64,000 bases of DNA from positions 14,398,158 to 14,462,157 of the forward strand of contig OW285195.1 in the NCBI GenBank assembly GCA_935421135.1, read 5' to 3'. The translations under genes were made by a program, and so were the position numbers. The notes beneath the pieces are model-generated. The model worked only from the letters and a program-made list of their open reading frames with translations, did no database searches and was not told the origin of the DNA. Of this stretch, positions 3,801 to 61,100 are shown piece after piece; positions within the stretch are counted from its first letter, which is position 1, and every line of letters begins with the position of its first letter. Source of the stretch: Bugulina stolonifera (Eukaryota > Bryozoa > Gymnolaemata > Cheilostomatida > Bugulidae).

Positions 3801-6800
3801 GCAGATAATACTTGACCTAATAACAATGTACAACAACTTTAATATACAAGTATAACTACTGAGTATAACACATACTATGGATATGCATTTGACCTAGAAA
3901 TAATATTTTATATAGGCTATTGAGTGTGTAATATATTATTGTTTACCTTGTGGAGACATAAGTAGATTCACACTCTCTAACACATCAAGGAAGAGTTCAT
4001 TCCTACGGTATTTGATTCCCTCTCTTCTCCAGCCTATCTGACCTGTGACCTATTAAATATTACATGTGACCTATTAAATATTACATGTGACTTATTAAAC
4101 ATTACATGTGACCTATTAAATATTACATGTGACCTCTTAAATATTACATGTGACCTCTTAAATATTACATGTGACCTATTAAATATTACATGTGACCTAT
4201 TAAACATTACATGTGACCTATTAAACATTCCATGTGACCTATTAAATATTACATGTGACCTATTAAATATTACATGTGACCTCTTAAATATTACATGTGA
4301 CCTCTTAAATATTACATGTGACCTATTAAATATTACATGTGACCTATTAAATATTACATGTGACCTATTAAATATTACATGTGACCTATTAAATATTACA
4401 TGTGGCCTATTAAATATTACATGTGACCTATTAAATATTACATGTGACCTATTAAATATTACATGTGACCTCTTAAATATTACATGTGACCTATTAAATA
4501 TTACATGTGACCTATTAAACATTACAAATGTGACCTATTAAACATTACATGTGACCTATTAAATATTACATGTGACCTATTAAATATTACATGTGACCTC
4601 TTAAATATTACATGTGACCTCTTAAATATTACATGTGACCTATTAAATATTACATGTGATCTATTAAATATTACATGTGACCTATTAAATATTACATGTG
4701 ACTTATTAAACATTACATGTGACCTATTAAAAATTACATGTGACCTCTTAAATATTACATGTGACCTGTTAAATATTACATGTGACCTATTAAATATTAC
4801 ATGTGACCTATTAAATATTACATGTGGCCTATTAAATATTACATGTGACCTATTAAACATGACATGTGACCTATTAAATATTACATGTGACCTATTAAAT
4901 ATTACATGTGACCTATTAAATATTACATGTGACCTATTAAATATTACATGTGACCTATTAAACATTACATGTGACCTATTAAACATTACATGTGACCTAT
5001 TAAATATTACGTGACCTATTAAATATTACATGACTGTGACCTATTAATCTATAAATGTGACCTATTAAACATCACATGTGACCTTTAAACATTACATGTG
5101 ACCTATTAAATATTACATGTGACCTATTAAACATTACATGTGACCTATTAAATATTACATGTGACCTATTAAATATTACATGTGACCTATTAAATATTAC
5201 AACCAATATGACACGTCAGCTCACGTAGTCTCTGGTTGTACGTAATAATTAGTTAATCAATACAACACTAAGTATAAAACTAAAAGCATGAGGAAGAGTA
5301 GTTTATGAAAGGGATAAGTCCAACATACAAGCGTGTACGATAGATAAAAATATTCCGCATATAAGCAAAAATGCATAAGTAGTCTATGGGGTGGATAACG
5401 AACACATAAGGTAGTGAGTTGGGCAAGTCCCATATATAAACCCATAAAGCGAATAAGTCTCACATATAAACCCATAAAGTGAATAAGTCCCACATATAAA
5501 CCTATAGAGTGGATAAGTCCCATATATAAACCCATAGAGTGGATAAGTCTCACATACAAGCACGTACCTGACTAGTAATCTGAGCTGTCTCCTCCTTACT
5601 CTGACTCTTCACACTTGCCTGAGTGATGTAAGTCTTCATTATACCAGTATCTGTGTTTTGGGGGTAGCCAAAGTCTAGCAGCTCTACAAGACAGTGTATC
5701 ATACACAGTAGTATTCATTATATCTACAAACAGCCACATCAGCGTAGATCTACGACAACAATCGGTCATGACTAAGACCTTTAGAACAACATCCTGTAAC
5801 AGTGATGGGGGCTTTCTAGTGCCATTCTCTTACCTGCTGCCCAGTGGAGTACAATTGAGCAGTGGGTATATATCTACATACAGCATACCGTCACATTAGC
5901 CACACCCCCCTACTTACAGTCACATTAGCCACACCTCCCCTACTTACAGTCACATTAGCCACACCCCCCTACTTACAGTCACATGAACCACACCCCCTAC
6001 TTACAGTCACATGAACCACACCTCCCTTACTTACCGTCGAGCAACTCATAAATCAGCACAAAATTGTTCTTGATGTTCTCCTCCGTAATCTTGCCGAAGT
6101 AGGAGTTCATCACAAGAACCATCTTGTTGAGAAACTCAAACACCATTGCAGCATTAACATTCTGTTTGGAGACGGCAGCTAACCATACGTTATTCCTCTT
6201 TATATGAAAAAAACTAGTACGCGCCATGTTTGTAACAGGCGACCTGATTGGCTGACGGGAATGAATTATCTTCACACGGAAGGCATCCACTGCATTGCGT
6301 CTGCAATTAAAAACAGGAGTAGCTTCAACAAATACCAGTGAGAAAATAAAAATGGAATAGCTTCTCGAGGCAAAAAATACTATTATGTCAGTGTTCGTCA
6401 AGACATACATGTAGGCCGAAACCTTCATTACTGAAGTGGGGAAAGCCCTAGTGAAAGGAACACACAAAAAGTACTAAATGAAAAGATAAGTTGTCTGAAA
6501 TATGCAACTATTCTGTCTTTAATTTCAGCAGAACAGTAGTAGCTGTAGAGATGTGCTCAATGTTCGTAAACTGATTGCAGACCGATAACCTAGCGCCTAA
6601 AGACATAAGGCTGTAGGACATAAATTATCGCCACATATATATTTTTCTACCCACCTATTCAATGATTAGGTATACTTCCAATGTTGCGACTGAATGAAAC
6701 TATCATAATCTTGCAGCGTAGATATGTTACTTTACTTACCCGATGTCATCTCTGTAAACTCGAGATATAAGAACCTCCCCTTTGTGGTTATAGATAAATA

Positions 6801-58158: not shown

Positions 58159-61100
58159 TTAGTTTCTTCCATAGGCTAAGCTATCCTCAACCTTTGCGAG
58201 GCTGGCAGACATCATCTGCCTCGTCCATCCTTTGTTTGGTAAAGTTAGAATAGAGTATTGATGATCGGGTGTCGTCTGAGGTCCATGTACTTTAGAGCAG
58301 TGGTTGTGGTACGTCTCCAACACTTTGCAAGGGTTCCTTACTATGTAATTCAGCAAATATCTGAATGTCCACAGCATACCTAAATGTAATTATAGTAATA
58401 GTACTAATCATCATTGTTTTAACATTTCTGACATAAAGCGCTGATAAATGCAAGCATAAGTGAATAGGAACGCTAGGAGTATGCTGTGAAACACACTAAT
58501 TGAATTTATCACATGATTTCACCAATATGTAAAAATAAATAATGATAAAATGACAAAACAAATGATAAAGATAAATAAAAATACCGGCCTAGGGCAGGCA
58601 CATAATTTTATATACAAAACAACAGTAGTTACAATTACCATGCTTTAACAAAAGGCAGTTGTACTAAGGAGTTATTGACTCTTGTATGTAAATAAAAAAA
58701 GAAAGACAACTCCACTAGTAAGACAGTCAAACATGCTGTAAATTTATATTCTATGCTTGAGATCTATAAAAGCAGCCTCTTTATATCTGACAGATTAGAA
58801 TGAAGGAAAAGGCATCAACTGGTTTCAAATATTTGCTGTGTTGCAGTAACAGTGTGATTTTCTAGCTTAGAAACACAGGCAGGGTCTTTATAGAAGTTTT
58901 GTGCTTTTGTCTGGTAAATAAGTTACCATTTTCTGTTATTAATAAGAATAACTATTGACTTACATGTAGTAAATGCTGAGTACATAAATATCAGAACTGA
59001 ATTTTTTTGCAATAAAAGGAGATATAATTCTTGCTACATGCATACTACGCAGCATAATATAAGGAGTTACTCTACCACGGAATGCATTATAATAATATAA
59101 GGAGTTACTCTACCACGGAATGCATTATAATAATATAAGGAGTTACCCTACCACAGAATGCATTATAATAATATAAGGAGTTACTCTACCACAGAATGCA
59201 TTATAATAATATAAGGAGTTGCCCTACCACAGAATGCATTATAATAATATAAGGAGTTACCCTACCACAGAATGCATTATAATAATATGAGGAGTTGCCC
59301 TACCACAGAATGCATTATAATAATATAAGGAGTTACCCTACCACAGAATGCATTATAATAATATAAGGAGTTACCCTACCACAGAATGCATTATAATAAT
59401 ATAAGGAGTTACCCTACCACAGAATGCATTATAATAATATAAGGAGTTACCCTACCACAGAACTCAATATTATAGTATTAAGAGTTGTCTTACCGTTCTC
59501 TGCTTGCCACATGTTGATTGGATAATCCAGTCTGTCTAATATTAAAGTTTCATTTAGTGGAGATCCTAACCTGAAGATATGAGTGTCATGGGAACCTGTA
59601 AAGCACATGCATATGTTACAGCAGGTACTCTAAGTGCTAGGAAACATGTACATGCCTTTACTTATACCTACTCTGGAAACTGCGAGATGTAGCTCTAGGG
59701 TCACAAGAGTTGAGGCTGAAATTTAACTAATAAATAAATTTAAGAGTAGGCATTAATAAAAAAGAAAAGAATGACAGACAGGGGAGGGTAACTTCGAATA
59801 ATATAATCAGTGGTTTGCATTCATATGAAGTGTTGAATGTGAAATAAAGGAGCTCTGCTATACCTTGGTATTGTTTGTCTAGACACATGTTATCTGTATT
59901 GCATGGCTTTCTACTCTTCTTGTTTGCACCGTGCCGAGTTAGAGAATACAGAACTTTCTCGTCTCTCATTCTCTCTGTATTAATCAACTCGAACCCCTTC
60001 CCTAACACTATTAAATACCATACTATTATATATTAACACATGACTAACACAAATAGTACATGTACACAAACTACTAGTCAAATATCTTTGAACTCATTAG
60101 CTTTGTTGATGGACTTAGAGAGGTTTTCCCTGCTTACTCATTGCACTTAACTTATCGAAATTCGTTGGTTCATATTGTATCACGTTGCCTTGCGTTGTGT
60201 TACGTTACATTCCACAGGGTATTAACATTGTGCCTGTATGTAATTAAAACTTACTTATATCGCTGTTAATAGCAATCACTGCTTTATCTATCAAGTTTCT
60301 AGACGAATAGATGAAAAAGTCGGCCATGTGCAATCTTCTTCTGTGCTTGACAGGAACAATTTTATACCTGTTGGTAAAGTTCCGAGAGTTCACGAGCTAC
60401 AAAATGATTCGGCTGAATGTTCCCAGAGCTAAATTCTGAACAGATGTGATAACAGTGCTCACTGTAGCATACAATAGTATCAAAGTTTAGGTAACCATCT
60501 TTCAGCAAACTAGTACCTCAAATAATTCAAAATTTATGTCTAAATAATATGACAAGGTAGGATACTAATGCAAGCTAGAAATATTCAAGCTCCACTTTAT
60601 GTAAAAAAAGTTCTTTGCATGAAAATTATAGTTGAATAAAAGAGCCAGTATATCTGTGCTGAAATAATCGATGCACCAGACTTGCATGTAATTTGCAATC
60701 AAATTATAAGTCAATCTATCTAAGTATTTTCTCACAGTTAGAAGAACAAACAGAGAGCATTTTGTAGTTCTAAAGGCTACTGAGCGGTGGGCTAAAGTTA
60801 AATTCAATACACCATTGATGGCAGTTGTGTGCAGGTGTCACATGTAATAGACATACTTGCAGTGCGCTATCATCCAAGTAGAACAGATGTACTTCCTTTA
60901 CAAACTCTCTGTTTATATTGAACTCTAGAGTCTCCATATATTCATCATCTCTTTCCTTGAGCTCTTCAATGGTATAGTTTTCATACTTGGGCCATCGTTT
61001 ACCTGAGCAAAAACCTCAACACGTTTTGTTTTCACTTGTATTCACTGAACAATCCTGGTGATACATACAAATATTTAGACATTTTGTTAGGGGCTTCGGT

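Follow-up and report, generated by a model that had tools for sequence, protein, structure and literature searches.

Tandem arrays that begin at splice junctions in the bryozoan Bugulina stolonifera: probable minisatellites straddling exon-intron borders

In several introns of the bryozoan Bugulina stolonifera, a short tandem array begins at a splice junction, such that a splice site lies within the outermost repeat unit and near-identical copies of it follow in the intron. How such arrays arose, and how the genes that carry them can be spliced, is the question raised by a 64,000-nucleotide stretch of contig OW285195.1 (assembly GCA_935421135.1, positions 14,398,158 to 14,462,157), referred to here as the window; positions given without a contig are window positions. 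The original prediction named seven arrays with a splice site in the outermost unit. Tandem Repeats Finder (TRF) returned 44 rows for the window, which after merging yielded 33 arrays with a period of at least 10, and all seven predicted arrays were among the repeats found, five of them clear and two (42825 and 59054) weak. The predicted list was thus right in outline, but it lacked an eighth array at 2750-2806. All junctions discussed here were placed by spliced frames, homology, gene prediction or eye on the genomic sequence of one assembly. The reading favored here, with a probability of about 0.6, is that these are junction-straddling minisatellites, produced by ordinary repeat growth in short introns and spliced via the exon-proximal site. 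The arrays at window junctions are as follows.

2750..2806, minus strand: 27 bp x 2.1 copies, at the acceptor of AP2M1 exon 2655-2752, extending 3 bp into the exon (TRF, frame)
4044..5201, minus strand: 21 bp x 55 copies, at the acceptor of AP2M1 exon 3947-4049 (TRF, spliced frame, PDB alignment, junction context; clear)
5886..6038, minus strand: 29 bp x 5.2 copies, at the donor of the AP2M1 exon ending at 6035 (TRF, PDB alignment, context, spliced frame; clear)
about 19029..19585, minus strand: ~23-29 bp x 21-24 copies, at a GABA-B receptor-like donor, exon edge 19570 (TRF, PDB alignment, context, frame; clear)
22305..22413, minus strand: 55 bp x 2 copies with a decayed third, at the acceptor of receptor-like exon 22171-22312 (TRF, context, frame; clear, only 2 good copies)
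42825..42937, plus strand: 19 bp, ~4-6 decayed copies, at the acceptor of RPAP2-like exon 42938-43033 (TRF, PDB alignment, context, frame; weak)
45757..45922, plus strand: 35 bp x 4.7 copies, 93% matches, at the donor of the RPAP2-like exon ending at 45776 (TRF, context, frame; clear)
59054..59493, minus strand: 38 bp x 10.8 copies, 97% matches, in a putative glycosyltransferase-like gene (TRF, context; weak)

The largest of these arrays, at the acceptor of AP2M1 exon 4, has 55 copies matching at 93%, and its 21-bp unit ends in TTTAATAG|GTCACA, the end of the intron followed by the first six bases of the exon (codons V-T); by script count each unit carries 6 exon bases exactly, or 9 with one mismatch. 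Splicing at the exon-side copy gives a continuous frame, ITSQ|VTGQ. In the 29-bp AP2M1 donor array (92% matches) the unit begins at GTAAGT and includes 0 exon bases, and the spliced frame stays open across the junction at 6035. Alignment of the predicted protein to the solved AP2 mu structure (PDB) covers 300 residues and is gap-free at both of these array junctions.

In the GABA-B receptor-like gene, a piece of whose protein shares 67% identity with one from Bugula neritina, the donor array carries ~16 exon bases per unit; the spliced frame YNIV|VLCL is continuous and the PDB alignment spans IYNIV|VLCLIA. The acceptor array at 22305..22413 has 8 exon bases per unit and a spliced frame of S|GRVAF. 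In the RPAP2-like gene, the donor array of exon 8 contains ~20-22 exon bases per unit with a spliced frame of LLK|SLEK. The exon 4 acceptor array is recognized by TRF over 42825-42896 only (3.8 copies, 73% matches), the remainder to 42937 being decayed; its spliced frame KLKS|INHK is continuous, and the PDB alignment covers the junction with a gap nearby, obtained with a query that carried one extra residue, V. At the glycosyltransferase-like locus, the TRF call ends at 59462, which leaves 31 bp to a donor-like site at 59493/59494, and a decayed unit bridges the interval. Six of the seven junctions that had been predicted to be real (in AP2M1, the receptor-like gene and the RPAP2-like gene) are thus supported by spliced frames, and the seventh is a candidate.

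The arrays show the hallmark of minisatellites, head-to-tail units of ~10-100 bp with few differences, the RPAP2-like exon 4 array being a poor example. By script count, the units of eight of 12 junction arrays contain at least 8 exon bases and those of the other four 0-3; the value of 8 for one CFAP46-like array described below (CFAP46a) is too low, and was ~33 by eye. Because many units contain exon bases, the seed duplications appear to have straddled the border. The exon fractions show no clear departure from a uniform distribution (Kolmogorov-Smirnov (KS) P=0.054, with CFAP46a underestimated) and fit seeds placed randomly across the border, perhaps leaning to the intron side.

The straddling-minisatellite reading draws support from frames that are continuous with the exon-side copy, from PDB alignments of AP2M1 and the receptor-like protein that agree with them, from the exon bases inside units, and from the junction counts of an independent sample and the lack of constraint on decoys, both described below. 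Under this reading, short tandem duplications would arise randomly in a repeat-rich bryozoan genome and, with introns being short, a fair share of 20-55 bp seeds would straddle an exon-intron border. Duplications within coding sequence would mostly be removed, and straddling ones would be tolerable: the exon-side copy would retain a functional splice site, and the added copies would become intronic along with the splice site that each contains. Straddling seeds may then expand as minisatellites to give up to dozens of near-identical decoys under no visible constraint, and correct splicing would need the exon-proximal copy to be chosen, as expected if sites pair across the exon. The order of events, the tolerance and the exon-proximal choice are the parts of this account that we infer.

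Unit lengths and sequences are unrelated among the window arrays, as predicted, and arrays of the same kind recur elsewhere. An independent sample of 280 kb (C1:3.2-3.4 Mb and C5:6.60-6.68 Mb, on contigs C1 and C5), picked without regard to arrays, contained 108 arrays with a period of at least 10. The flanks of 16 chosen arrays were read in this sample, and the following arrays stand out; positions are those within the sampled blocks.

C1:128098: 38 bp x 19 copies, donor array of a CFAP46-like gene, by flank reading
C1:124497 (L017, contig positions C1:3324497-3325229): 39 bp x 19 copies, donor array of a CFAP46-like gene; in frame, may be coding
C1:191508: 21 bp x 6.2 copies, donor array, by flank reading
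C5:64578: 33 bp x 2.1 copies, donor array of a PALS1-like gene, by flank reading; the gene finder took the second donor
C5:59784: 24 bp x 3.1 copies, acceptor array of the same PALS1-like gene, by flank reading
C1:178145: 20 bp x 33 copies of a perfect AAGGTAAGT unit, 133 bp from a predicted donor; a counter-example
C1:186301: array with GTAAGT on the antisense strand; a counter-example

The names CFAP46 and PALS1 are presumed from the look of the predicted proteins. The L017 array is read through in the exon frame by the gene finder, and use of a later donor could add 13-residue repeats to the CFAP46-like protein. Elsewhere in the sample, L025 (C5:6607741-6608546) consists of two adjoining 31-bp arrays of ~12 copies each, with units in opposite orientation.

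Further junction arrays came from a motif search of the genome (234,951,659 bases in 27 contigs, C1 being 36.8 Mb). The 100 GGTAAGT matches listed are all on the forward strand and fall in ~11 arrays at C1:0.25-1.56 Mb. For eight of these arrays 221 bp of flank was fetched, with the C1 arrays 516148, 565256 and 565445 left out of the flank check; the eight were chosen by a donor motif, which favors donors. One array (L034) terminates at an exon of a dynein heavy chain, at a DNAH10-like donor reading ...NNTSI|GTAAGT (PDB E=1.2e-24), and L035 adjoins a putative 45-nt exon with a donor. The coding scores of these two flanks were 20.4 and 12.2, respectively; random flanks given a forced donor scored 10.3 at the median and 20.7 at the 95% point. 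Such a scan of the eight flanks does not decide the matter by itself, and L034 is identified by homology. L037 is the acceptor array of a USP39 exon (E=1.8e-7). By eye, L039 reaches the acceptor of a CDK-like kinase exon, for which the gene finder placed the acceptor 6 bases further in, and L033 ends ~7 bp before a possible acceptor of an open frame; the inspected 221-bp flanks of L036, L038 and L040 held no convincing exon. The outermost unit thus appears to hold the working splice site both in the window, judged by frame or homology, and at the DNAH10-like donor and the USP39 acceptor, judged by homology, and the kinase acceptor, judged by eye.

Units differ by eye among the window arrays and the listed C1 arrays, so that no single repeat family or transposon was recognized, though no systematic family search was run; the exceptions among the listed C1 arrays are two pairs with related units (C1:491638/516148 and C1:565256/565445). 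The prediction of a repeated process rather than one family is borne out by the recurrence of unrelated units elsewhere in the genome and by the over-representation of the donor consensus in units. Among GGTGAGT matches listed on C1 (to 17.7 Mb), 13 of 17 arrays lie by eye in the first 4 Mb, whereas for the control motif AGTGGAT, listed over the whole 36.8 Mb of C1, that region holds four of 16 arrays. Human minisatellites cluster near chromosome ends. Extrapolation from the sample to a genome-wide number of arrays was rejected, since its 200 kb part comes from the start of C1, the region in which the listed arrays are concentrated.

Two groups of results, on array position and on unit content, bear on whether random seeding suffices, and those that lean toward junctions or toward strong donors weigh against it. 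Introns were delimited, partly by eye, for 17 of the 33 window arrays, the 59054 array not being among them. Seven of the 17 overlap a junction where 3.1 are expected from seeds allowed to overhang the exon by at most one unit (P=0.017). Twelve are no more than 25 bp from a junction, where 5.7 are expected; the overlap count is 6/16 against 2.8 (P=0.03) without the hand-lengthened RPAP2-like array and 5/11 against 1.8 (P=0.018) for arrays of more than 2.5 copies. Since the window was chosen because of its arrays, this position test is not independent. With ten of the 17 avoiding junctions, the claim that only a few intronic arrays do so fails, though five of those ten are within 18 bp. In C1 and C5, junctions were predictions of a gene finder trained on 344 kb (the window plus both samples), which recovered 14 of 18 known exons exactly and 30 of 36 edges in a benchmark set that drew partly on an earlier run of the same finder; its errors blur the positional test. 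Permissive settings, giving up to 3001 introns and a median exon of 15 bases, were dropped, and the predicted introns are short (median 321 bp). Under three settings, 6/53, 4/56 and 4/50 intronic arrays lay at most 3 bp from a predicted junction, as compared to 5.7, 6.3 and 4.2 expected, and 12, 13 and 12 lay within 25 bp (expected 10.1, 11.3 and 7.5). The mean position rank was 0.41, 0.44 and 0.43, where random placement gives 0.5 (KS P=0.020, 0.066 and 0.045), a lean toward junctions. For the window, C1 and C5 together, 5/48, 7/45 and 7/40 arrays were at junctions; random seeds predict 6.8, 6.2 and 6.0, and a null model without junction crossing predicts 2.2, 2.0 and 2.7 (P=0.022, 0.00035 and 0.00045). 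The predicted excess over random positions is therefore seen in the window and not in the independent 280 kb (4-6 observed, 4.2-6.3 expected), where the tilt toward junctions is weak at best.

The excess of strong donors among units is not accounted for by random seeding, and it is the basis of the strongest rival, in which strong 5' splice sites themselves favor the birth, growth or survival of arrays. The motif GTRAGT, fixed after GTAAGT had been seen in units, though the original prediction itself pointed to donors, occurs in the units of 9 of 55 arrays (period at least 10, at least 3 copies) as compared to 1.65 in random segments. GTAAGT is the top enriched 6-mer in the 55 arrays, with 7 against 1.0 expected, a difference that is not significant once all 6-mers are counted. 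In the C1 and C5 intronic arrays, sense GTRAGT is present in 5/25, 5/30 and 5/23 against 0.46, 0.54 and 0.41 expected from random seeds with overhang allowed, two of the five being at junctions of one gene (124497 and 128098) and three away from them (12192, 15748 and 178145). The antisense motif is also in excess (2 against 0.25, 0.27 and 0.21), which does not favor the rival. A role for antisense GTAAGT as a branch point (CTTAC) was considered and rejected, since the sequence ahead of acceptors shows no enrichment of CTTAC, at 0.60 per kb against 0.84. Among arrays of at least 10 copies, GTRAGT is present in 4/13 where 0.37 would be expected. All four belong to the 10 that lie outside the window, but of these C1:178145 is off the junction and C1:186301 is antisense. 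Donors at arrays also score above other donors (P=0.002, 8 against 251), with two of the eight below the median. In a genome-wide search for triplets, three copies of a motif within short spacings, GGTAAGT gave 3728, as compared to 159 for its reversed control TGAATGG and 465 for AGTGGAT, both equally common motifs, and GGTGAGT gave 1899 as compared to 413 for its reversed control TGAGTGG; single-motif densities outside arrays (344 kb) are similar, at 120 (GGTAAGT), 135 (TGAATGG), 117 (AGTGGAT), 123 (TAGGTGA), 154 (GGTGAGT) and 151 (TGAGTGG) per Mb. TAGGTGA, with 1548 triplets, was set aside as a control because it is donor-like (TAG|GTGA), and it narrows the contrast to only 2.4 fold. Motif matches overlap within arrays, and counts at the level of arrays, made by eye among 100 matches listed for each motif, were ~11 for GGTAAGT, 25 for TGAATGG and 19 for AGTGGAT; match counts are thus inflated by long arrays, and the array-level excess is only roughly 5-10 fold. 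Two of the eight flanked arrays (L037 and L039) carry GGTAAGT antisense at acceptors, and decoy sites show no constraint, both of which tell against the rival. A strong donor might be a mutagenic site, for example through R-loops or a paused polymerase where U1 binds, or long AT-rich intronic arrays might persist better if U1 binding by each unit prevents premature polyadenylation or protects against mis-splicing. That the 5' splice-site consensus causes minisatellite birth, growth or survival is a tentative proposal which we doubt without dismissing; it would imply hundreds of introns with long arrays of U1-binding sites, and a spliceosome that reliably takes one exon-edge site among dozens.

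The remaining rivals fare worse. It is very unlikely that the association exists only in the eye of the reader, as arrays in introns that happen to be short: the independent junction counts do match the random-seed expectation, but the motif excess and the recurrence at homology-supported junctions remain. Retention of decoys by selection for splicing regulation, one of the causes originally suggested, would explain the intact sites seen in many copies; near-identical copies, however, look young, and intact sites are expected in them anyway. With eight arrays pooled and the exon-edge unit excluded, changes affect 11/257 GT/AG core positions, 29/526 extended positions and 114/2673 other positions, a change passed on to several copies entering this tally repeatedly. 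Core and other positions thus change at the same rate (Fisher P=1.0), as do core plus extended positions (40/783 against 114/2673, P=0.32), and there is no sign of selection for or against decoys in these arrays, which makes such selection very unlikely. The idea that the introns themselves were born by tandem AGGT duplication and amplified later, also raised in the original prediction, draws on an established route of intron gain (PMC3443670) and on the AG|GT that several units contain at the junction. It requires the duplicated segment at both intron ends, but similarity of the unit to the opposite end was no greater than in other introns (mean p 0.68 for 11 introns, two of them at 0.05-0.06, with a few junction coordinates off by 1-4 bases within the 50-base windows compared), and the junction falls at differing places in the unit, the exon share varying from one array to another. 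This origin is regarded as highly improbable.

Several features of the window lie near junctions without overlapping them. Of three arrays predicted just inside donors, two were found and one (53610-53705) was not called by TRF. These arrays, two further intronic counter-examples and additional exon ends are as follows.

5425..5556, minus strand: 30 bp x 4.4 copies, 11 bp inside the donor of AP2M1 exon 5568-5683, no overlap (TRF, intron position)
24213..24283, minus strand: 17 bp x 4.2 copies, 8 bp inside a receptor-like donor, no overlap (TRF, intron position)
23070..23482, minus strand: 29 bp x 14.2 copies, 45 bp from the nearer intron end; counter-example (TRF, intron position)
43579..43818, plus strand: 49 bp x 4.9 copies, 52 bp from a donor; counter-example (TRF, intron position)
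18705: receptor-like exon end (spliced frame)
42749 and 46100: RPAP2-like exon ends (spliced frame)

A tRNA-Ser (GCT) gene lies at 19870-19953 on the minus strand, within the span of the receptor-like gene. At 32233-32352 and 33049-33168 is a 120-nt inverted repeat, 91% complementary with arms 696 nt apart, that resembles a foldback element. Exons at 50200-55199 on the plus strand carry a motif suggestive of a Fringe-type glycosyltransferase.

Among the titles and abstract openings listed in searches of open-licence papers, one on tandem repeats at exon-intron borders was noticed, a study of human paralogs in segmental duplications (PMC2812944), where tandem repeats likewise cross such borders and copies are kept or spliced out. 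In that account, repeats of variable kind gave rise to new introns or to alternative transcripts among paralogs of recent origin, whereas the bryozoan arrays stand in conserved genes (AP2M1, RPAP2-like, GABA-B receptor-like), where up to ~55 copies adjoin an exon edge and the exon edge remains in agreement with the conserved protein. Minisatellites and variable number tandem repeats of Caenorhabditis elegans also lie inside introns, in genes with multiple alternative splicing (PMC4039745), but are tied there to regulatory motifs, and units with a working splice site are not described in the portion of that paper used. Intron gain by tandem genomic duplication (PMC3443670) shares tandem duplication with AG|GT at the junctions; there the segment is expected at both intron ends, which was not found in the bryozoan introns. 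Where near-equal human 5' splice sites compete at a long intron, the one closest across the exon tends to be chosen, as a preference only (PMC9225289). By that exon-centric proximity rule, the exon-proximal one of several equal competitors at a long intron should be used; the rule describes a preference between competing sites of human genes, and dozens of near-identical copies are not dealt with in the portion of that paper used.

These loci are natural tests of splice-site choice, in which one working site faces up to ~55 near-identical copies in conserved genes. Published RNA sequencing data of Bugulina stolonifera (ERR10123683, named in PMC10213821) could show how faithfully the exon-proximal site is chosen. 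The same paper names an alternate haplotype of the assembly, GCA_935421085.1. The genome-wide excess of donors in tandem units emerges with no gene model, and a possible promotion of repeat growth by splice sites can thereby be tested directly.

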